From an uncultured Bacilli bacterium (lineage in GTDB: Bacteria > Bacillota_I > Bacilli_A > RF39 > UBA660): DNA of 40,866 nt. A program made the translations under genes and the position numbers. The notes under the pieces were generated by a model, which was not told the origin of the DNA, did not search any database, and saw only the letters and a list, made by a program, of their open reading frames with translations. The DNA lies in contig CANQYK010000005.1 of NCBI GenBank assembly GCA_947628065.1, positions 1-40,866 on the forward strand, read 5' to 3'. Positions 1 to 30,326 of this stretch are shown in pieces; position 1 is the stretch's first letter, and the number at the start of each line of letters is the position of its first letter.

Positions 1-688
1 TTTAGTCTTTTCTACATCCTTTTTCTTATCTTTTTTATCGTTCTTCTATGCTCAGATTATTTCCCGGGAAATAATTTTAATCTTTTCTACACCTTTTTTT
101 TATCTTTCTTATTGTTCTTCTATGCACCAATTATTTCCCGGGAAATAATTTTTAGTCTTTTCCACACTCCTTTTCTTATCTTTCTTATCGATCTTCTATC
201 TTCTATGCTTCGATTATTTCCCGGGAAATAATTTTAGTCTTTTCTACACCCTTTTTTTATCTTTCTTATTGTTCTTCTATGCACCAATTATTTCCCGGGA
301 AATAATTTTTAGTCTTTTCCACACTCCTTTTCTTATCTTTCTTATCGATCTTCTATCTTCTATGCTTCGATTATTTCCCGGGAAATAATTTTAGTCTTTT
401 CTACACCCTTTTTTTATCTTTCTTATTGTTCTTCTATGCACCAATTATTTCCCGGGAAATAATTTTTAGTCTTTTCCACACTTTTTTTCTTTTCTTTATT
501 ACTGTTCTTCCATGCCTCAATTATTTCCCGGGAAATAATTTTAGTCTTTTCTACACCTTTTTCTTATCTTTTTTATTGGTCTTTTATTCCTCAATTATTT
601 CCCGGGAAATAATTTTAGTCTTTTCTACACCCTTTTTTTTATCTTTATTACTATTCTTCTATGCTCAGATTATTTCCCGGGAAATAAT
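1..688. repeat. Array of nine perfect palindromic Noc-binding-site repeats
   Basis: Nine identical copies of the perfect palindrome ATTATTTCCCGGGAAATAAT start at 56, 130, 213, 287, 370, 444, 520, 594 and 669. Start-to-start distances are 74, 83, 74, 83, 74, 76, 74 and 75 bp. The spacers are related to each other, almost purely pyrimidine on the + strand, and carry recurring words such as TAGTCTTTTC and GTTCTTCTATGC. The core ATTTCCCGGGAAAT is the Noc-binding site described in Bacillus subtilis, and a Noc-type protein is encoded at 18,146-19,648. Bases 1-55 are a complete spacer, so at least one more copy should lie just left of the window. The block follows the gyrA terminator and has no credible coding content. 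That the sites are Noc sites rests on the consensus match; the role of the cluster is inference. Confidence 0.9.
130..443. repeat. Perfect 157-bp tandem duplication inside the array
   Basis: Positions 130-286 and 287-443 read identically by eye. Each unit holds two palindromes, one followed by a 63-bp spacer and one by a 54-bp spacer. The longer spacer differs by a short internal duplication of TCTTCTAT. Complete identity in non-coding DNA suggests recent unequal exchange or slippage, so copy number may vary between strains. Confidence 0.85.
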
Positions 689-706
689 TTCATTTGTAAT
701 ATCATA

Positions 707-734
707 AAAAGAGGAAAATTAACTTTCCTCTTTT
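707..734 (-). terminator. Rho-independent terminator of the recF-gyrB-gyrA operon
   Basis: An 11-bp stem (AAAAGAGGAAA with TTTCCTCTTTT) surrounds a 6-nt loop. Read on the minus strand it ends in a T run. The gyrA stop codon lies in the loop region, so the hairpin begins before translation ends. It separates the gyrase operon from the palindrome array. Confidence 0.8.
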
Positions 735-3187
735 ACTTCTGATTCCATTACAGATTCTTCTTCTGTTTCTTCTTTTTCTACTATCGCTACTGTCGCAACT
801 TTTTGCTCTTCTTTTAAATTAATTAATCTTGTTCCTTGTGTTGCTCTTTTTAAAGTAGATATCTGTGATAAAGGCATCCTCATTATAATACCACTATCTG
901 TAATAATCATAAGATCTAATTTTTCCACAAATTCTGGTTTAACATATTTTAAAGCTACCATATTTCCATTTTTCTCTGTTATATTTAATGCTTTTACGCC
1001 TTTACTTCCACGATGTGTTAAGCGATATTCATCAATTATTGTTTTTTTACCATATCCTTTTTCTGTAACAATTAAAATTTCTTCACCAGAATTAATTACT
1101 TCTGCACCAATAACCTTACTATCGCCTAAGTCAATTCCTTTCACTCCAGAAGTACCACGCCCCATAGAACGAATTTCTGTTTCTTGGAATCTTACCATAC
1201 GACCATTGCTTGCTCCGATTACGATTTCATCATTTCCTACTGTTTTACGAACGGCAATTAATTCATCATTTTCTTTTAATATAATTGCTATTTTTCCAGA
1301 TTTTCTAATATTTTCAAATTCTTCTATTGCTGTACGTTTTACTAATCCATTTCTTGTCGCAAACAATAAGAATTTACTTGGTTCATCTTCTGCATTTAGC
1401 TCTATCATCGAACTAATGTTTTCATCTTTTTCTAACGATAATAAATTAACAATTGGTAATCCTTTGGATTGTCTTCCAAATTCTGGTATTTCATATCCCT
1501 TTAAGCGATATACTTTACCTTTGTTCGAGAAGAATAGAATATAATCATGTGTTTTCATTGGTATTATGTGTTCTACAAAATCTTCTTCATTGGTTGCCAT
1601 TCCTTTGATACCAACACCACCACGATTTTGTGCACGATAGGTATCTGATTTTACACGTTTTATATATCCCTTATTTGTTAAGGTTATAATAATATCTTCT
1701 ACTGGAATTAGGGATTCATCTTCAATATACTCAATTGCTGTCATATCAATATTGGTACGACGTTCATCTGCATATTTTGCTTTAATCTCTAATAATTCCT
1801 TTTTGATGACTGCCAAAATATTTTCATCACTACTTAAAATTTCTTTTAATTCTTCTATTGTTTTTAATAAATCTTGTAACTCGTTTTCTATTTTTTCTCT
1901 TTCTAATCCAGTCAAACGACGTAATTTCATTTCCAAAATAGAATTAGCTTGAATCTCACTTAATCCGAATTGATTCATCAAACCATTTCTTGCTTCTTCA
2001 TCAGATTGACTACCACGAATTAACTTAATAACAGCATCAATATGATCAAGTGCTATCTTTAGCCCTTCTAAAATATGTACTCTTTTCTCTGCTACATCTA
2101 AATCATATTGTGTTCTTCTTATAATAACTTCTCTTTGATAATCAATGTATTTGGCAATGATATCTTTTAATCCCAGTGTTTTTGGAACACCTTGATCCAA
2201 CATTAAGAAGATAATTCCATAAGATGTTTGAAATGCTGTATGTTTGTATAACTTATTTAAAACAACTTGGGCATTCGCATCTTTTTTTAACGTAATCGTT
2301 ATTTTTATACCATCTTTCAAGTCCGTATGATAATCCGCAATTCCTTCGATTGTTTTATTATGAACAAGTTCTGCTACCTTATTTTTTAAATCTAATGTAT
2401 TAATACCATATGGTACTTCATCTACAATAATATATTGTCTTCCATTCTTTTCTTCAATGGTAGCTTTACTTCGAATGGTAATACTTCCTCTACCTGTTTC
2501 ATAAGCTTTTCTAATACCACTATTTCCTAAGATGTTCGCACCCGTTGGAAAATCAGGTCCTTTGATATATTTCATTAATTCATCTAATTCAATGTCGTGA
2601 TTATCAATGTACGCTACACAACCATCAATTACTTCCCCTAAATTATGTGGTGGAATATTGGTTGCCATACCAACGGCTATTCCTGTCGTACCATTTACTA
2701 AAATATTTGGAAAACGAGATGGTAAAATTTCTGGTTCTTTTGTTGTTTCATCAAAGTTTGGAATAAAGTTTACGGTATTTTTATTAATATTTCTTAATAA
2801 TTCTAAGGATATCTTTGATAATCTTGATTCTGTATAACGCATTGCTGCCGCACCATAACCTTCAATATTACCAAAATTTCCATGTCCATCAATTAACATA
2901 TAACGATAAGAAAAATCTTGTGCCATACGTACCATTGCTTCATAAATACTAGAATCTCCATGAGGATGGTAATTACCCATAACCTCTCCAACTGTTTTGG
3001 CACTTTTCTTATGTGGTTTATCTGGTGTATAACCAGACTCATACATGGAATATAAAATTCTTCTATGAACTGGTTTTAATCCATCTCGTAAATCAGGAAG
3101 TGCACGTGCCACGATAACACTCATTGAATATTCTAAGAAAGAATCTTGTACTTCTTTTACAATATTATTTTTTTCTAAGCGATCCAT
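719..3187 (-). CDS. gyrA: DNA gyrase subunit A
   Basis: This is the 822-residue breakage-reunion subunit of gyrase (A2B2), which introduces negative supercoils. The catalytic tyrosine is Y118 in AAAMRYTES. The quinolone-determining region reads [12 protein letters not shown], with S79 and E83 at the Escherichia coli 83 and 87 positions. The GyrA-box region is [10 protein letters not shown], with V where K or R is usual. The C-terminal beta-pinwheel is complete and ends in an acidic tail rich in E, typical of GyrA rather than ParC. The start is supported by an AGGAGGT ribosome site at 3194-3200 overlapping the gyrB stop. It is the last gene of recF-gyrB-gyrA. Length is normal for Firmicutes. 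Confidence 0.97.
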
Positions 3188-3198
3188 AACCTTACCTC

Positions 3199-5124
3199 CT
3201 ATACATCCAAGTTCTCAACATATGTTGCATTATTTTCAATAAATTCACGACGAGGCTCTACTTCTTCTCCCATTAATTTTGAGAAAATATCATCGGCTGC
3301 GACGGCATCTTCTACCGTAATTTGTCGTAATACTCTTTTATTGATATCCATTGTTGTTTCATTCAATTCTTCGGCATCCATTTCCCCTAACCCTTTCATT
3401 CTGGCAATATCATATTTGGTGTTTGGAGAAAGGGTTGCTAAATATTCATCTCGCTCTTGTTCATTTAAAACATACTTTATGGTTTTTCCATGTTTAATGA
3501 CAAACAAAGGTGGTTGGGCAGCATAGACGTGTCCTGCTTCTACAATCGGACGGAAGAAACGATAGAATAACGTTAACAGTAAGACTCTGATATGAGAGCC
3601 ATCTACATCTGCATCGGTCATGATAATAATTTTATGATATCTTAACTTTGATAAATCAAATTCTTCCCCTATTCCTGTACCAAAGGCTGTTATAATCGTT
3701 CTAATTTCTTCATTGGATAAAGCTCTATCAAGTCTTGCTTTTTCTACATTTAAGATCTTTCCACGAAGTGGTAAAATAGCTTGGGTCATACTATCTCTTC
3801 CTTTGATGGCAGAGCCTCCTGCAGAATCTCCTTCGACTAAGAATATTTCACTAACAGAAGCATCTTTGCTTTTACAGTCTGATAGTTTTCCATAAAAATT
3901 CGTAACATCAAGATCTCCTTTTCTTCTTGTTAATTCTCTAGCTTTTTTTGCGGCAACACGAGCACGAGAAGCAGTCATTGATTTTTCTACAATTAATTTT
4001 GCTTCTTCTGGATGTTCCATTAAAAAGCGTTCAAAATCTTTTGAGAAAATACGATTACAAACACCTCTTACTTCACTATTTCCAAGTTTTGTTTTTGTCT
4101 GTCCTTCAAACTGTGGATTGGGATGTTTTATTGATACAATCATCGTAAGTCCTTCTCTTACATCTTCTCCTGTTAATGGATCATCCTTTTCCTTCATAAT
4201 TCCACTACTTTGGGCATATTTATTTAATATTCGTGTTAGAGCAATACGAACGCCATCTTCATGGGTTCCACCTTCTGGTGTTGTAATATTATTAACAAAA
4301 GAATAGATACTTGCATTATAACTTTCATTATATTGAAGTGCAACCTCTACCATAATATCGTTTTCTTCTCCTGTAATATCAATGATTGTATCATGAATTG
4401 GTTGTTTCGTTTTATTAATCATTTGTACATATTCTCGAATTCCACCTTCATAACAGAAAGAATCTTTTTTATCGGCCTCTCTATCATCATATAGAGTGAT
4501 ACGAAGTCCACGATTCAAAAAGGCAAGTTCTCTTAAACGATTTTTTAAGATATCATAATCATAAACTGTTGTCTCTTCAAATATAGAAGCATCTGGTAGA
4601 AAGGTGACAGTTGTCCCTGTTCTATCTTCATCACAATCATCAATGATCTTTAATGGCTCTACTGCATGACCTCCATTAATATATTTTTGATAATAGATAT
4701 GTCCATTTTTATATACTTTTACCTCTAAACTTGTGGATAGCGCGTTTACAACGGATGCTCCTACACCATGAAGACCACCAGATACTTTGTATCCTCCTCC
4801 ACCAAATTTTCCTCCTGCATGAAGGACGGTATAAACGGTTTCTACGGTACTTTTTCCGGTTTTTGGATGGATATCTACAGGAATTCCTCTTCCGTCGTCT
4901 TTTACCGTAATACTGTTGTCTTTTCCTATGGTTACCTCAATATGCGTACAATAACCTGCTAAGGCTTCATCAATCGCATTATCAACGATTTCCCATACCA
5001 AATGATGAAGTCCCCTACTACTTGTACTACCAATATACATTCCAGGCCGTTTTCGAACTGCCTCTAATCCTTCCAATACTTGAATGGCAGATGAATCATA
5101 TTCTTGTTCTACTTTTTCTTTCAT
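3199..5124 (-). CDS. gyrB: DNA gyrase subunit B
   Basis: This is the 641-residue ATPase subunit of gyrase. The GHKL ATPase fold shows [10 protein letters not shown] near residue 45, DDGRGIP at 76-82 and [15 protein letters not shown] near 116-130. The TOPRIM domain shows EGDSAGGSA and the metal-binding [10 protein letters not shown]. The C-terminus ([16 protein letters not shown]) is the usual GyrB ending. Its start ATG overlaps the recF stop by 4 nt (ATGA), implying translational coupling, and gyrA follows after 11 nt. The [13 protein letters not shown] segment favours GyrB over ParE, as does the origin-proximal location. Confidence 0.97.
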
Positions 5125-6363: not shown

Positions 6364-6835
6364 AGAAATTTTTGTTTTGTTTTCGATTTCGCACTACAGA
6401 TTCTAATCGACTTGCTCTTAATATTTGGTTTTCCAAAGACTTATAAGAGATATTCGCTACCATGGTTTTTCCATTTATGAATTCAATCAAGCAACTATTT
6501 TTGTCCATGGTGGCTTTTGATATTTCTTTGATTTTATTAAGCGCGATCCATGCACAGTTTGCTTCTTCTGGAGAATTGGTTGGTAAAAATACCAAATTCT
6601 TACTATCTTCAATTAAAATTGGAAGTTTGTAAGCACTATTTAAGATATTTTTTGACCCCTCCCTTCTTCCAAGATAGGAACTACCAAAGTAACTACAACT
6701 ATAGCTTAATATTTCAAATGGTGTTCTTTCCACATCAATTTCATCCTCTTCCTCTAATACTAAGGAATCCAAAAAGTTCTCTCCTTCCAGTGGTAAAATT
6801 GCTAGTGTCGAATCATTAATTTCATAATCTTTCAT
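6362..6835 (-). CDS. comK: ComK-family competence transcription factor
   Basis: This is a 157-residue ComK-family protein. Segments that match ComK are YEINDSTLAILPL near the N-terminus, then SCSYFGSSYLGRREGS, KLPILIEDSKNLVFLPT, IEFINGKTMVANISYKSLEN and QILRASRLESVVRNR. In Bacillus, ComK is the master activator of DNA-uptake genes and binds paired AT-rich boxes. The ATG at 6833-6835 is chosen because a strong GGAGGGGG ribosome site lies just upstream; the longer frame begins at a TTG inside that site. The protein is shorter than B. subtilis ComK (192 residues) and lacks the C-terminal extension that MecA recognises there. It sits alone between dnaN and recF with its own promoter and terminator. 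Family assignment is from motif recall, and function in this organism is inferred. Confidence 0.85.
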   Translation of the reverse strand: MKDYEINDSTLAILPLEGENFLDSLVLEEEDEIDVERTPFEILSYSCSYFGSSYLGRREGSKNILNSAYKLPILIEDSKNLVFLPTNSPEEANCAWIALNKIKEISKATMDKNSCLIEFINGKTMVANISYKSLENQILRASRLESVVRNRKQNKNF

Positions 6836-24032: not shown

Positions 24033-24061
24033 TTGAAAAAAAAAGTTCCTTATGTTAAACT
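24033..24061 (+). promoter_or_regulatory. Promoter of the Ig-stalk/metallo-beta-lactamase gene
   Basis: TTGAAA (24033-24038), a 17-nt spacer and TAAACT (24056-24061) with TGT extending the -10 lie 33 nt before the ATG. Confidence 0.6.
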
Positions 24062-24094
24062 AGATATAGTTAAGAATAGGAGAGGTGTTATTGT

Positions 24095-27000
24095 ATGCGG
24101 AAACGGGTATTATTTAAAGTAGGTATTTTATTTATTGTTGTTGCTTTATCTTTGGGACTATATCAATTTTTTAAGGAATATCAAGCAGTTAATGAAGAAG
24201 TAAGATTAAGAACTGCTTATTATGTAAAGACAGGTCAAGTGTTAAATGTAGTTCAGAAAGATTTTTTAGAGGGTAGTACCGTTGAAAGTAGTGATACCAA
24301 TGTTGCAGAAATTACGAATGATGGAGGAATTGAAGCAAAGAATCCCGGTGTTGCAACGGTTACAGTAACAAAACCTCTTGAAGAGATGCAATCTACACTT
24401 CCCCAAATTGATCCTAATACATTACCACCGGAAGAAAGAGAAGAGTATGAAGAAAGAGCAGAAGAGGAAACCATTCCTCAAGAAGAATATGAAGTAAGTT
24501 ATAATTTTGATGTTGTTGTAAAACAACCAGTAACAGGAGTAAAATTAAATGTTGAAATTGCTCATTTGGAAGAAGGAAAAACATTACAATTAGAACCACT
24601 TTTTATACCAGATAATGCTTATAATAAAACAGTGTCTTATCAATCTTTTAATAATGATGTTGCGACAGTATCAGAAACAGGTTTGGTAACAGCGAAAAAA
24701 AGTGGAGAAACAACAGTTGAAATTGTAACACAAGATGGTGGTTTTAGAAGTACTTGTACGATAATGGTATATTCAAAGAAAGAGGATAATAAACTTTATG
24801 TAAAAGAAGAATCTTTCTCATTATTTACGGATGAAAAAGTTCAAATAAATGCAAGTGTAACACCAAATTCTGATGAAAACAAAAAAATTAAATATCAAAG
24901 TAGTGATACTAATATATTTACGGTAGATGAAAATGGAGTAATAACTGGTAAAGTTCATGGACAAGCAGAAGTAATTGTAACGTATGAAAATATGGAAAAA
25001 AGAATACCAGTTACAGTAAATGAAGTAGTAGCAACCAAACTACAAGTAAGTCCAAAAACAGTTCATTTAAAAGAAGGAGAAACTCAAAAAATTGAGGTTA
25101 TTGTAGAACCAGAAAATGCCTTAGATAAAAATGTTAATTATAGTAGTAGTAATTCTTCTGTGGCAGAAGTCCAAAATGATACAATTGTAGCGAAACAAGC
25201 AGGTACTGCAACGATAAGAGTTAGAACTAACAATGGATTAGAAGATACAATAGAAGTACAAGTAGAAGCCAAAGAAGCTCCGAAAAAGAAAGAAGTAGAA
25301 AGTATTAAATTAAATGAAAGTACACATTCTATGTATGTAGGAGAAACTTATCAAATAGGATATACCTTCTCACCAATGGATGCAGAGGTAACACCCCCTA
25401 CTTTTACCTCTTCTCGTAGTAGTGTAGCAGTTGTTGATCAAGCAGGTACAGTAACAGCAATGGGACCTGGAACAACGCAAATTACAGTTACAATGGGAAA
25501 AGCATCTGCAACGATGACTATGACGGTAAAACAAGTAACAATTCCAGCAACGAGTTTAACGGTATCTCCAACATCTATTTATGGAAAAGTAGGAGATGTA
25601 ATTCCTTTAGAAGTCTATATTACTCCAGAAAATGCAACAGAAAGAAATATTATATTTGGAACAAGTGATAACTCTGTCGCATCTGTTTCTGCATCAGGAG
25701 TTGTAACTTTAAGAAAAGAAGGAACTGCAGTTATATCTGCTCATATAAATTATGGACCTAATGTTAATATTAATGTTGTAGTAGAAGCACAACCTACCAT
25801 TACACTGAATAAACAAGCAATCAATTTGGTTCAAGATGCAACGGAAAAAATAACAGCAACGGTAAAAAATAGTAATGATAAAGAAATTGTTTGGTCTAGT
25901 GAAAATTCAAATATTGCAACTGTAGATAATAATGGAAATATAAGAGCAGTTGCGGATTCTGGAAGTACTACGATTGTTGCGTCTTTAAAAAGTAATCCTG
26001 CAATAAGAGCAACAGTAGTGGTTAATATAACTGCTAAGAAAATAGCAGCTACTGGTATTACGGTAACCAATCAAAATACAGGTGTTAATTTAATAAATCA
26101 TTTATTTTTAACAGTAAATACAACAACAAATTTGCAAATACAAGTAACTCCCGCTAATACTAGTGATAAACCAGTTGTTAGTTTTGTAAGTGGACAATCA
26201 ACATCGCTAGTTAATATGAGTCAAAATGGAAATACGGTTAGTCTTCAATCTTCTTCTAAAACGGGTACAACAAAAATTCAAATACAAGCAGGAAATGTTG
26301 TAAAAACGATTATTGTACAAGTTGAGGGTACCGGAGATAAAATGTACTTTCTGTGTAAAAATACATATACTCCCGGAGATACTGATACTTGGGTAACAGG
26401 AGATGCTATTATTGTTCGAAGTGATAATGAATTTGGAATGGTAGATACTGGACGAGTTAGTACGAATAAAGAGCCAAATGCAACCGAGGATGTTTTTTCG
26501 ATATTAAATGGTTTAGGAATAAAAACATTAGATTTTATTATTATTTCTCATTGGGATAGTGATCATTATGGTAATCTTTTACCAATTTTAAAAGAATATA
26601 ATGTTAAAAAAGTATATGCTAAAACATATTCTCATAATGGAACTCCTGTTTATACCTATGAATTTTCAAAGAGTAATAAATTATCAAAAGTAAAAGAAAT
26701 GGTAGAAGTAATTACTGGAAAACAGGTTTTAGAAGGTGCGAAGAACAGAATTGGAAATATTTTAAAAACACCATCTAATTTTACTTTTCATAATATGCAA
26801 TTTGAAGTATATAATAAAGATGATATTTATAAGTCATATTATGATAAATGTCATAAGAGTGGTATAACATGTGATGAAAATCCTCAAAGTTTAATTTATC
26901 TAGTTAAAGTAAATGGAAAGAAAATTCTTTTGGCAGGGGATAGTATAAATTTAAAGAAAACAATTACAAAAAATGGAAAAAAAGAAATTGTTATGCAAAG

Positions 27001-27313
27001 TAATGTTCAAACTAACACATATAAAAAAATTGGTAAAGTAGATGTATTTAAAGTCGCACATCATGGCTTTTCAAGTAATAATCCTAAAGCTTCTATTGAT
27101 TTAATTAAACCAAAATATGCAGTGTTTACAAATAAAGAATCTAGGTTTGGAAGTTGGAGTACTAATAGTTCATTAGGACATATTAATAATGCAGGATATA
27201 CAAATATTAAGACATATACAGGAAGTAATAATTATTTCACTTATGGAAAAGTAATTATATCAAGGTTTGCTCCTAGTAAGATTTATTTTGCAGAAGCACC
27301 TGCAACGTTATAG
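24095..27313 (+). CDS. Surface-anchored Ig-like (Big_2) repeat protein with a ComEC-like metallo-beta-lactamase domain
   Basis: This 1072-residue protein has an N-terminal membrane helix (residues 6-26) without a clear cleavage site. About eight tandem Ig-like Big_2 domains follow (residues ~35-745), with typical motifs such as SSDTNVAEI and GVVTLRKEGTAVISA. A C-terminal metallo-beta-lactamase fold (about 747-1072) carries HWDSDH at 819-824, AGD at 947-949 and VAHHGFSSN with HH at 989-990. These motifs match the hydrolase domain of ComEC/Rec2, which has HxDxDH rather than HxHxDH. The predicted arrangement is an extracellular enzyme on a stalk. The first Ig domain holds an acidic, proline-rich insert. 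The ATG at 24095 has AGGAGAGGTG upstream. Substrate is unknown; a nuclease or phosphodiesterase activity is inferred. Confidence 0.85.
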   Translation: MRKRVLFKVGILFIVVALSLGLYQFFKEYQAVNEEVRLRTAYYVKTGQVLNVVQKDFLEGSTVESSDTNVAEITNDGGIEAKNPGVATVTVTKPLEEMQSTLPQIDPNTLPPEEREEYEERAEEETIPQEEYEVSYNFDVVVKQPVTGVKLNVEIAHLEEGKTLQLEPLFIPDNAYNKTVSYQSFNNDVATVSETGLVTAKKSGETTVEIVTQDGGFRSTCTIMVYSKKEDNKLYVKEESFSLFTDEKVQINASVTPNSDENKKIKYQSSDTNIFTVDENGVITGKVHGQAEVIVTYENMEKRIPVTVNEVVATKLQVSPKTVHLKEGETQKIEVIVEPENALDKNVNYSSSNSSVAEVQNDTIVAKQAGTATIRVRTNNGLEDTIEVQVEAKEAPKKKEVESIKLNESTHSMYVGETYQIGYTFSPMDAEVTPPTFTSSRSSVAVVDQAGTVTAMGPGTTQITVTMGKASATMTMTVKQVTIPATSLTVSPTSIYGKVGDVIPLEVYITPENATERNIIFGTSDNSVASVSASGVVTLRKEGTAVISAHINYGPNVNINVVVEAQPTITLNKQAINLVQDATEKITATVKNSNDKEIVWSSENSNIATVDNNGNIRAVADSGSTTIVASLKSNPAIRATVVVNITAKKIAATGITVTNQNTGVNLINHLFLTVNTTTNLQIQVTPANTSDKPVVSFVSGQSTSLVNMSQNGNTVSLQSSSKTGTTKIQIQAGNVVKTIIVQVEGTGDKMYFLCKNTYTPGDTDTWVTGDAIIVRSDNEFGMVDTGRVSTNKEPNATEDVFSILNGLGIKTLDFIIISHWDSDHYGNLLPILKEYNVKKVYAKTYSHNGTPVYTYEFSKSNKLSKVKEMVEVITGKQVLEGAKNRIGNILKTPSNFTFHNMQFEVYNKDDIYKSYYDKCHKSGITCDENPQSLIYLVKVNGKKILLAGDSINLKKTITKNGKKEIVMQSNVQTNTYKKIGKVDVFKVAHHGFSSNNPKASIDLIKPKYAVFTNKESRFGSWSTNSSLGHINNAGYTNIKTYTGSNNYFTYGKVIISRFAPSKIYFAEAPATL

Positions 27314-27335
27314 AGTACAAATAAGTACTCTTTTT
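27312..27335 (+). terminator. Terminator after the Ig-stalk/MBL gene
   Basis: AGAGTAC (27312-27318) and GTACTCT (27325-27331) form a 7-bp stem with a 6-nt loop and a T run. The stop codon is partly in the stem. Confidence 0.75.
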
Positions 27336-28511: not shown

Positions 28512-28940
28512 ATGAAGGTTAACAAATTAGCAATTTATCTAACAGCACTTACTATCGGTACTACAACACTTTCCGGTTGTGGAAAAGAATTTGAGTATGA
28601 AGTAACAAAAGATGGAGAAATAAAAGCGACCAATACAATTTCTTACAGTAATTTATCAGATGATGTCTTTTTAACATTAGAATACGATGATGATACTACG
28701 GTTACATACATTACAAATAAATGGTATACAAGTCGTTCTACTGATTCTACTGATTATTATGAATATGATGATGAAATGAGTGGAAAAGGAATCTTTTCTT
28801 TGGGATATGATAAAGATCATGAAGAATATAAAATTGCTGATCCTAGTATTGCGTCTTTTAATGAGAGTATGGTAGATTATTTTTTAACCAAATATGGTTA
28901 TAGGGAATTTCCAAAAAAAAATTTACCACTTATGGAGTAA
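28512..28940 (+). pseudogene. Lipoprotein gene, 5' part, interrupted by an insertion sequence
   Basis: The standing frame gives 142 residues with a lipoprotein signal ending LSGC (Cys23), then a Tyr/Asp-rich domain. The insertion sequence begins at 28,903, so the last 12 residues (after TKYGY) are encoded by the element. Joining 28,512-28,902 to 30,223-30,326, which removes the element and one copy of a TA target duplication, restores a single frame of 164 residues ending KLEKVKE. The family is not recognised. The truncated product may still be made and anchored. A GGGGG-type ribosome site precedes the ATG. Confidence 0.85.
28903..28928. repeat. Left terminal inverted repeat of the insertion sequence
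   Basis: It begins GGGAATTTCC and ends ATTTACCA, and is the reverse complement of 30,195-30,220 with one A/T difference in the central A run. Confidence 0.88.
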
Positions 28941-30126
28941 TAAGAACACTCCATTTTTTAATATGATCTTGTCTTGTAATATATTGATTTTCTAATTGTT
29001 TCATTTCTTTTTTATCAACTGTCATACCTTTTTCATATTTAACATCTTTTAATTTCGTTACCGATTTCTTTTCCTTCCATGTTAAATTTTTCATAAAATT
29101 CATACAAATATCAACACTTTCTAAAAGATACCCATTCCATATATTTTCAAGTCTTGCCCATAATCTTTCTACTGGATTATATTTACTATGATATGGTGGA
29201 TAATAAATTAATTCTATTGTAATGTTATATTTTTTTGCTACTTCTATTAACCCTTTTAAAAAAGCTGTTCTAACTCCACTATTATCAGGCCCATTATCTA
29301 AAAGTATAGAAAGTTTATTATATTTACTGTTTTCGTATTGTTCTTTCCAAAATTCTTCAATACAGTCTACTATATCCATTGATGTTGGCTTAGATGTAAA
29401 ATTATAAAAGTGTGGTATATTAGTTTTTATATCTAGTATTCCCAAAGGTATTAAGCAATTATTTGTTAATTCATGATCAACTGCCTTTACTTGTATTCTA
29501 TTTTTGCCTTCCCTTGAATAAGGACCAATCAATACTTTATCTTTTGTATCAATTGAAATAAGAACGGTTTTATCTTCTTTTATTGCTTCTTCTTTTTTTT
29601 CATGAACATTCGCAAATATATCATCTGTTTCTTTTATTTTTTTTAATGGCTTTGTTTTTTGGACTTTTTTTAAATTATAACCCATTTTATTTACTAAATT
29701 ATTTAAACTACTATCACTGAAACTATCCTCCTCATATTTACCATTTTTAATTAATTGTTTTTTTATTTCTTTAATACTCAGTCTCACATATTGTGTTTCA
29801 CTTTTAAAGTGTGGATCTACAGAGGAATTGTTTTCTATTATTTTTTTGATATCTTCTTGTAATTCAGGATACTTTGTAGTTAAACTTTTTCTTCCTCGTG
29901 TTTCAACTTTAGGTTTATAAGTTATTGTGCCTTTGAATATTTCTATTGCTTTTCTAATTGTAAACCGTGATAAATCAAATATTTTAGAAAGTGCAGAAAT
30001 ACAACGATTCCCTATATCTAGCGCTAATGACCCAATCATTTTCATTTTTTGTTCTTTGTTTGATATATTTTTTATCGTTTTTATTAAATTTTTATAACAT
30101 TTTTCTATTTTTTGTAGTATACTCAT
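28930..30126 (-). CDS. DDE transposase (ISAzo13-like)
   Basis: This 398-residue transposase has an N-terminal helix-turn-helix (ISALSKIFDLSRFTIRKAI) and a DDE core. The core includes LISIDTKDKVLIGPYSREGK, LLDNGPDNSGVRTAF and YPPYHSKYNPVERLWARLEN; candidate catalytic residues are the D of SIDTK, the D of LLDN and the E of PVERLW. These blocks resemble the ISAzo13 group (Rhodopirellula-type DDE transposases). The ATG at 30,126 has AAGGAAG upstream and a strong promoter in the right end. The stop is next to the left inverted repeat, and no internal frameshift is evident. Confidence 0.85.
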   Translation of the reverse strand: MSILQKIEKCYKNLIKTIKNISNKEQKMKMIGSLALDIGNRCISALSKIFDLSRFTIRKAIEIFKGTITYKPKVETRGRKSLTTKYPELQEDIKKIIENNSSVDPHFKSETQYVRLSIKEIKKQLIKNGKYEEDSFSDSSLNNLVNKMGYNLKKVQKTKPLKKIKETDDIFANVHEKKEEAIKEDKTVLISIDTKDKVLIGPYSREGKNRIQVKAVDHELTNNCLIPLGILDIKTNIPHFYNFTSKPTSMDIVDCIEEFWKEQYENSKYNKLSILLDNGPDNSGVRTAFLKGLIEVAKKYNITIELIYYPPYHSKYNPVERLWARLENIWNGYLLESVDICMNFMKNLTWKEKKSVTKLKDVKYEKGMTVDKKEMKQLENQYITRQDHIKKWSVLITP

Positions 30127-30163
30127 ATTAACAACTTCCTTACTATTGTGATTTTATAATAAT

Positions 30164-30192
30164 AGTTTACGAAGTTGTTTTCATTTTGTCAA
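30164..30192 (-). promoter_or_regulatory. Transposase promoter inside the right end of the element
   Basis: On the minus strand TTGACA (30,187-30,192), a 17-nt spacer and TAAACT (30,164-30,169). Confidence 0.7.
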
Positions 30193-30194
30193 AC

Positions 30195-30220
30195 TGGTAA
30201 ATTTATTTTTGGAAATTCCC
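30195..30220. repeat. Right terminal inverted repeat of the insertion sequence
   Basis: It starts TGGTAAAT, ends GGAAATTCCC and mirrors the left end at 28,903-28,928. Confidence 0.88.
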
Positions 30221-30222
30221 TA

Positions 30223-30326
30223 TAAAAGAAGAATATACAGTAGATGATGTTAGTAAATATTTAGAAGAATATAAGACGGAGTATGAGAAGCAAAAAAGTA
30301 AGAAATTAGAAAAAGTAAAGGAGTAG
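30223..30326 (+). pseudogene. Lipoprotein gene, severed 3' part
   Basis: This is the remaining 3' end of the gene at 28,512. Read in the restored register it encodes IKEEYTVDDVSKYLEEYKTE and then EKQKSKKLEKVKE, followed by TAG at 30,324-30,326. A weak hairpin with T tract follows at about 30,322-30,341 and was probably the gene's terminator. Confidence 0.8.

Follow-up and report, generated by a model that had tools for sequence, protein, structure and literature searches.

Genes of the Locus and Architecture of the Protein

The window, by which we mean the whole stretch of 40,866 nucleotides that was analyzed, encodes, in order, the RNase P protein, mnmE, mnmG, gidB, noc, soj, parB, mscS, abgT, the stalked gene described here, ychF, ssb, rplI, and dnaB, with rpsF also present between ychF and ssb. 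We take the block from the RNase P protein to dnaB to be the housekeeping cluster near oriC. The ComK homolog mentioned in a preliminary description of this DNA is real and is encoded on the minus strand at 6380–6832 (E 3.9e-41). A complete-looking IS element (28898–30225) lies between ychF and rpsF; its 34-nt terminal inverted repeats are 94% complementary, and it contains a gene for an ISAZ013-type transposase on the minus strand (28930–30126).

The stalked gene (Table 1) encodes a protein with a single strongly hydrophobic segment, located at the N-terminus (Kyte-Doolittle windows starting at residues 3–9, maximum 2.39), and no LPxTG motif was found in its 1072 residues. Pfam assigns seven stretches to Big_2 (E 4.7e-66, 219.2 bits against a cut-off of 22.8), which places the protein among tandem Big_2 surface proteins, and a further, degenerate Ig-like repeat just before the metallo-beta-lactamase (MBL) domain can be read by eye in the translation. 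The C-terminal head matches Lactamase_B above the cut-off (E 9e-10, residues 765–961) and carries HWDSDH, AGD, and AHHG at the places first reported; for the motif III ligand, alignments offer two candidate Asn residues, one in SNFTF and one in ENPQS. Pfam detects Ig-like and MBL domains only, without the membrane channel (Competence) domain of ComEC, and this, together with the single hydrophobic segment, bears out the initial view of a metallo-hydrolase-type head joined to a membrane-anchored Ig-like stalk and not to a ComEC channel. The order of anchor, stalk, and head suggests that the head is located outside the cell.

Table 1. Features of the stalked gene and its flanks (positions are those of the window).
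Feature	Position	Strand	Basis or remark
Whole gene	24095..27313	+	Uninterrupted ORF, ATG start; 1072-residue protein with anchor, Ig-like stalk, and Pce-like MBL head
Promoter-like site, TTGAAA, 17 nt, TG-preceded TAAACT	24033..24061	+	Consensus match only, weak
Ribosome-binding site, AGGAGAGGTG	24078..24087	+	Precedes the ATG at 24095; by reading
Predicted N-terminal hydrophobic anchor, residues 3-27	24101..24175	+	Hydropathy
Membrane-proximal region, residues 37-97	24203..24385	+	Most conserved part; 70% / 62% identical to L043 / L045
Stalk of Big_2 Ig-like repeats	24203..26332	+	Seven Pfam stretches and one degenerate repeat by eye
Pce-like metallo-beta-lactamase-fold head, residues 747-1072	26333..27310	+	Pfam, sequence, profile, fold, tree
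Motif II, HWDSDH, residues 819-824	26549..26566	+	Asp codon GAT; His in 31/34 family members
Motif IV, AGD, ending at residue 949	26933..26941	+	Motif reading
Motif V, AHHG, residues 988-991	27056..27067	+	Motif reading
Terminator-like stem-loop with T tail	27312..27331	+	At the stop codon; weak

The promoter-like and terminator-like sites are weak evidence, as scans of the region returned about as many as shuffled sequence (17 promoter-like sites versus 21.0 expected, and two terminators versus 1.3 expected). The upstream neighbor, abgT, also ends in a T-tailed stem-loop.

An Insertion between abgT and ychF

The preliminary description had called the position of this gene within a housekeeping cluster unusual, and comparison with related genomes confirms it: abgT and ychF are directly adjacent, without a stalked gene, in four genomes of the same genus (L149, L150, L151, and L156). 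The same site is also empty in two genomes from other genera, G189 and G228 (L153 and L155), whose own homologs are located elsewhere. In G095, a homologous gene occupies the next gap along, on the other side of ychF and before rpsF. The stalked gene is therefore an insertion, and its neighbors say little about its function. It may best be regarded as an extra, self-contained unit in the housekeeping block, with no functional link to the genes on either side.

Because the genome (92.89% complete) has an estimated contamination of 6.74%, and no family-strength match was found among 24 genomes of the same genus, we considered whether the contig had been mis-binned. This is unlikely, as its gene order is that of the four same-genus genomes and its soj and abgT are 89–92% and 67–69% identical to theirs, respectively. 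The ychF gene is as similar to that of another genus (75%, G117) as to those of its own (73–77%), which indicates that this species is not close to the other members of the genus.

We also compared the head with mobile-element and defense collections. A phage origin was rejected, with no match in 50,697 phage records; weak matches occur in 7 of 72,556 plasmid records and at seven loci in viral contigs. A role in anti-phage defense was likewise discarded, since the head matches Pce far more strongly than any of its PADLOC hits (LmuA, a DRT-associated MBL, and Avs1a).

Kinship of the Head with Pce

The preliminary description had read the head as ComEC-like. In every comparison with solved structures, however, Pce is closer (Pce/CbpE: PDB 1wra, 2bib, and 12qj). 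A phmmer search of PDB sequences returns Pce/CbpE at E-values of 7.1e-18, 3.9e-17, and 3.6e-16, versus 0.0056 for the best ComEC, and a profile built from 12 relatives matches Pce at 7.3e-54 over positions 1–268 of 292, versus 4.1e-11 for ComEC. The predicted structure of the head, a model of moderate quality (16 sequences, mean pLDDT 75.2, pTM 0.82), gives the same ranking. Foldseek places Pce (2.6e-19) ahead of ComEC 9ic4 (1.2e-12), and in VIA-align Pce is first (Z 28.5, rmsd 2.8, 272 aligned residues, 29% identity), ComEC 9ic4 second (Z 25.5, rmsd 2.7, 254 aligned, 17% identity), and RNase J third (Z 18.0, rmsd 3.5, 249 aligned). The nearer match is thus to a teichoic acid phosphorylcholine esterase, an outcome that had been named in advance as counting against ComEC kinship. 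The best NCBIfam model for the head is ComEC_Rec2, at 37.6 bits, far under its cut-off of 190. As Pce has also been named the closest solved relative of ComEC itself (PMC5031224 and PMC12455585), it is the ranking, and not the bare match to Pce, that counts as evidence.

The 34 family rows and Pce separate from 19 ComEC-type or other rows, with a support of 100/98, in a 54-row tree whose bootstrap is not fully settled. Forcing the window protein among those 19 rows costs 14.2 log units, which an AU test does not reject (p-AU 0.102). With this reservation, the head is kin to Pce/CbpE, with ComEC second, by sequence, profile, predicted fold, and tree; membership in ComEC was rejected on these grounds as well as on Pfam and motifs.

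The Pce-Like Family and Its Motifs

Among the ORFs of the loci that were fetched, 34 distinct family members score 210–365 bits with the profile, which 12 of the 34 had been used to build, and 100 others score at most 120 bits. The class sample contains 19 genomes of 395, the window's own included, that match the profile at E ≤1e-30; one of these (G258, 112 bits) falls below the gap, leaving 18. The 193 genomes of the family sample include 11, the window's own again among them, that match the single sequence at E ≤1e-12, and removal of G081, whose match is of the ComEC type, leaves 10.

Thirty-one of the 34 members have HxHxDH as their motif II, and the exceptions are the window protein (HWDSDH), L043 (LQQADH), and L052 (HNRSDH), so the window protein is the sole member with HxDxDH. 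The resemblance of its motif II to that of ComEC, noted at the outset, holds for the motif itself, but HxDxDH does not identify ComEC, as the 100 ComEC-type and other MBL rows include both HxDxDH (63 rows) and HxHxDH (31 rows). Moreover, two further motifs, each found in 86 of those 100 rows, are missing from the head: HHGS is absent from the whole family, and GHP occurs in only one member (L060).

Twenty-two of the 34 members are short forms of 280–334 residues with little before the head and no stalk, and those that were read have no anchor. The contig with one short Pce-like gene (L061, 618–6843) also encodes a reverse transcriptase and an apparent serine recombinase. Another clade (L062, L063, L067, L068, and L069) has about 145–185 residues before the head, in which hydrophobic stretches can be seen by eye. 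Of L062 and L053, the two tested, L062 has a weak T4SS_pilin match (22.0 bits versus a cut-off of 26.6).

Stalked Relatives

Big_2 stalks were detected by Pfam in the window protein and in L043, L045, L048, L050, and L052. L043 (positions 672–5024 of that locus, on contig C76) is a paralog from the window's own genome; it shares the anchor and stalk and adds an asparagine-rich linker, an SH3_3 domain, and a Peptidase_M15 domain. Its motif II is damaged, although SNHNRGIAVD and SEWWHF, which we take to be the defining M15 motifs, are both present. A gene for a LysM protein adjoins that of L043. L052 adds a Peptidase_C39_2 domain, and L045, with motif II HYHVDH, has nothing after the head and is encoded near FtsW/RodA and a Mur ligase. 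L051, of at least 1583 residues, has its head at its end and no Big_2 match.

L043, L045, and L052 have the same parts as the window protein, from the N-terminal region through the Big_2 stalk to the Pce-like head. Among the 193 family and 395 class genomes, this N-terminal region occurs only in the window's own genome (twice), G189, and G228, always with a Pce-like head and with no other head type seen. Judged by titles and the beginnings of abstracts, no description of a Big_2-stalked Pce-like protein was found in the literature.

At L050 (3376–6571), a gene encoding a PAP2-DgkA fusion lies 55 bases before the stalked gene, on the same strand, which may indicate a part in the phosphate metabolism of lipids or polymers; PAP2 genes are also found near L053 and L062.

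Envelope Context and Possible Function

Surface phosphodiester polymers are plausible in this organism, since its genome contains a cluster with three genes for poly(glycerol phosphate) transferases (PF04464) as well as a gene for a sulfatase-family protein. In that cluster (L182, contig C46), one of the transferases is fused to a glycosyltransferase, and genes for MBOAT and PMT_2 proteins are present. The M15 and C39-like peptidases fused to stalked relatives, together with the FtsW/RodA and Mur ligase genes near L045, point to the envelope.

We found no match to LicD (PF04991) in this genome at its 92.89% completeness, where another route or an assembly gap is possible. In a survey of 26 genomes, LicD is not associated with the Pce-like family, being present in 2 of the 11 genomes that carry the family and in 3 of the 15 that lack it (G081, whose match scored as ComEC-type, is counted among the latter), and a choline route linked to LicD was set aside. 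Phosphorylcholine on the organism's own wall is thus an unlikely substrate.

Our leading explanation, to which we give a probability of about 0.45, is that the protein acts at the cell surface as a phosphodiesterase on phosphate polymers of the envelope, for example teichoic acids. With the stalk positioning it within the wall or past it, the head would use a dinuclear metal center to cut the phosphodiester bonds of envelope polymers, the candidates being teichoic-type chains of glycerol phosphate or the substituents of such chains. In ComEC, which depends on Mn2+, one His of motif II is replaced by Asp and the motif III His by Asn (PMC8579336); Pce has also been described as an Fe(II) enzyme (PMC5108564). 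Given the replacement of the second His of motif II by Asp in the window protein, and by analogy with ComEC, Mn2+ rather than Zn2+ or Fe2+ is a reasonable guess for the metal. Counting against a phosphodiesterase is the departure of this motif from the family HxHxDH, and the abundance of short forms without stalk or, in those read, anchor indicates that an envelope substrate is not a necessity for the family as a whole.

Alternatively, the head may be a binding module: stalked members in which metal site 1 is lost or altered would hold a polymer of the envelope or of a neighboring cell and in some cases target an attached peptidase. Motif II is altered in three of the seven large secreted members (the window protein, L043, and L052) versus none of the 27 others, a contrast whose Fisher p of 0.0058 is post hoc and uncorrected for descent. 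The preservation of the M15 motifs in L043, where motif II is lost, is consistent with such a role, as is the lower conservation of the head (36% and 30% identity to L043 and L045) relative to residues 37–97 (70% and 62%). However, the window protein retains all four fixed positions of HxDxDH, along with AGD and AHH; HxHxDH is kept in four of the seven large members; and ComEC, whose motif II is likewise HxDxDH, is catalytically active as an Mn2+ nuclease (PMC8579336). We regard a binding role as rather doubtful.

It is similarly improbable, and slightly more so, that the head is a scavenger that cuts head groups such as phosphocholine off phospholipids and polymers of a host or neighbor for nutrition, in the manner of a phospholipase C. 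The relationship to Pce, a long stalk reaching outwards, and the PAP2-DgkA and PAP2 genes near related heads would suit this function, and a foreign substrate would fit a genome in which LicD was not found, but the neighbors of the window gene, abgT included, are housekeeping genes that are present with or without it.

An extracellular ComEC-type nuclease acting on DNA or nucleotides, the idea originally put forward, is very unlikely: the motif order with HWDSDH, the ComEC_Rec2 and 9ic4 matches, the AU result, the basic head (43 K+R versus 30 D+E), and the ComK homolog speak for it, but Pce is closer in the structural comparisons and the tree, HHGS and GHP are missing, a regular ComEC is already encoded elsewhere in the genome (contig C1), and the motif II Asp codon is one base away from a His codon.

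Implications

Relatives of the Pce catalytic head are thus found in uncultured Bacilli on a different surface scaffold, some of them with a changed metal site, and in this case in a genome without detectable LicD. Confirmation of the envelope phosphodiesterase would mean that the role of the Pce fold extends past phosphorylcholine and that an HxDxDH motif by itself is no basis for annotating ComEC or a nuclease in genomes. More speculatively, and with only a slim chance in our estimation, the stalked lineage may keep its anchor and stalk while the head is repeatedly rewired as an exchangeable surface unit: a ComEC-type metal site in the window protein, loss of metal site 1 and gain of a peptidase in L043, and an altered site with a C39-like domain in L052. 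The fold would then shift between hydrolase, Mn2+ phosphodiesterase, and envelope-polymer binding module, and peptidoglycan hydrolases targeted to teichoic acids would be one outcome.

Comparison with Known Systems

In pneumococcus, Pce trims the phosphorylcholine of the wall. The C-terminal beta-lactamase-like domain of ComEC (9ic4, 9vcb, and 30bt) shares with the window protein the MBL fold, HxDxDH, and a position, predicted here, on the extracellular side of the membrane, but differs in the channel domain and in HHGS and GHP, and the similarity in sequence and fold is weaker than to Pce. Pce itself differs in the second His of motif II, and in module order: the catalytic module comes first and the choline-binding module follows (PMC4929436), whereas in the window protein the anchor and Big_2 stalk precede the head. 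None of the eight Pfam families that match the window protein at E ≤1 is a choline-binding repeat. Lacking a detectable choline-binding module and LicD, and with a differing motif II, the protein is related to Pce but is not filed as a phosphorylcholine esterase. What it has in common with Pce/CbpE is an MBL head that aligns over almost its whole length, a surface location, predicted in this case, and the joining of that head to an elongated module.
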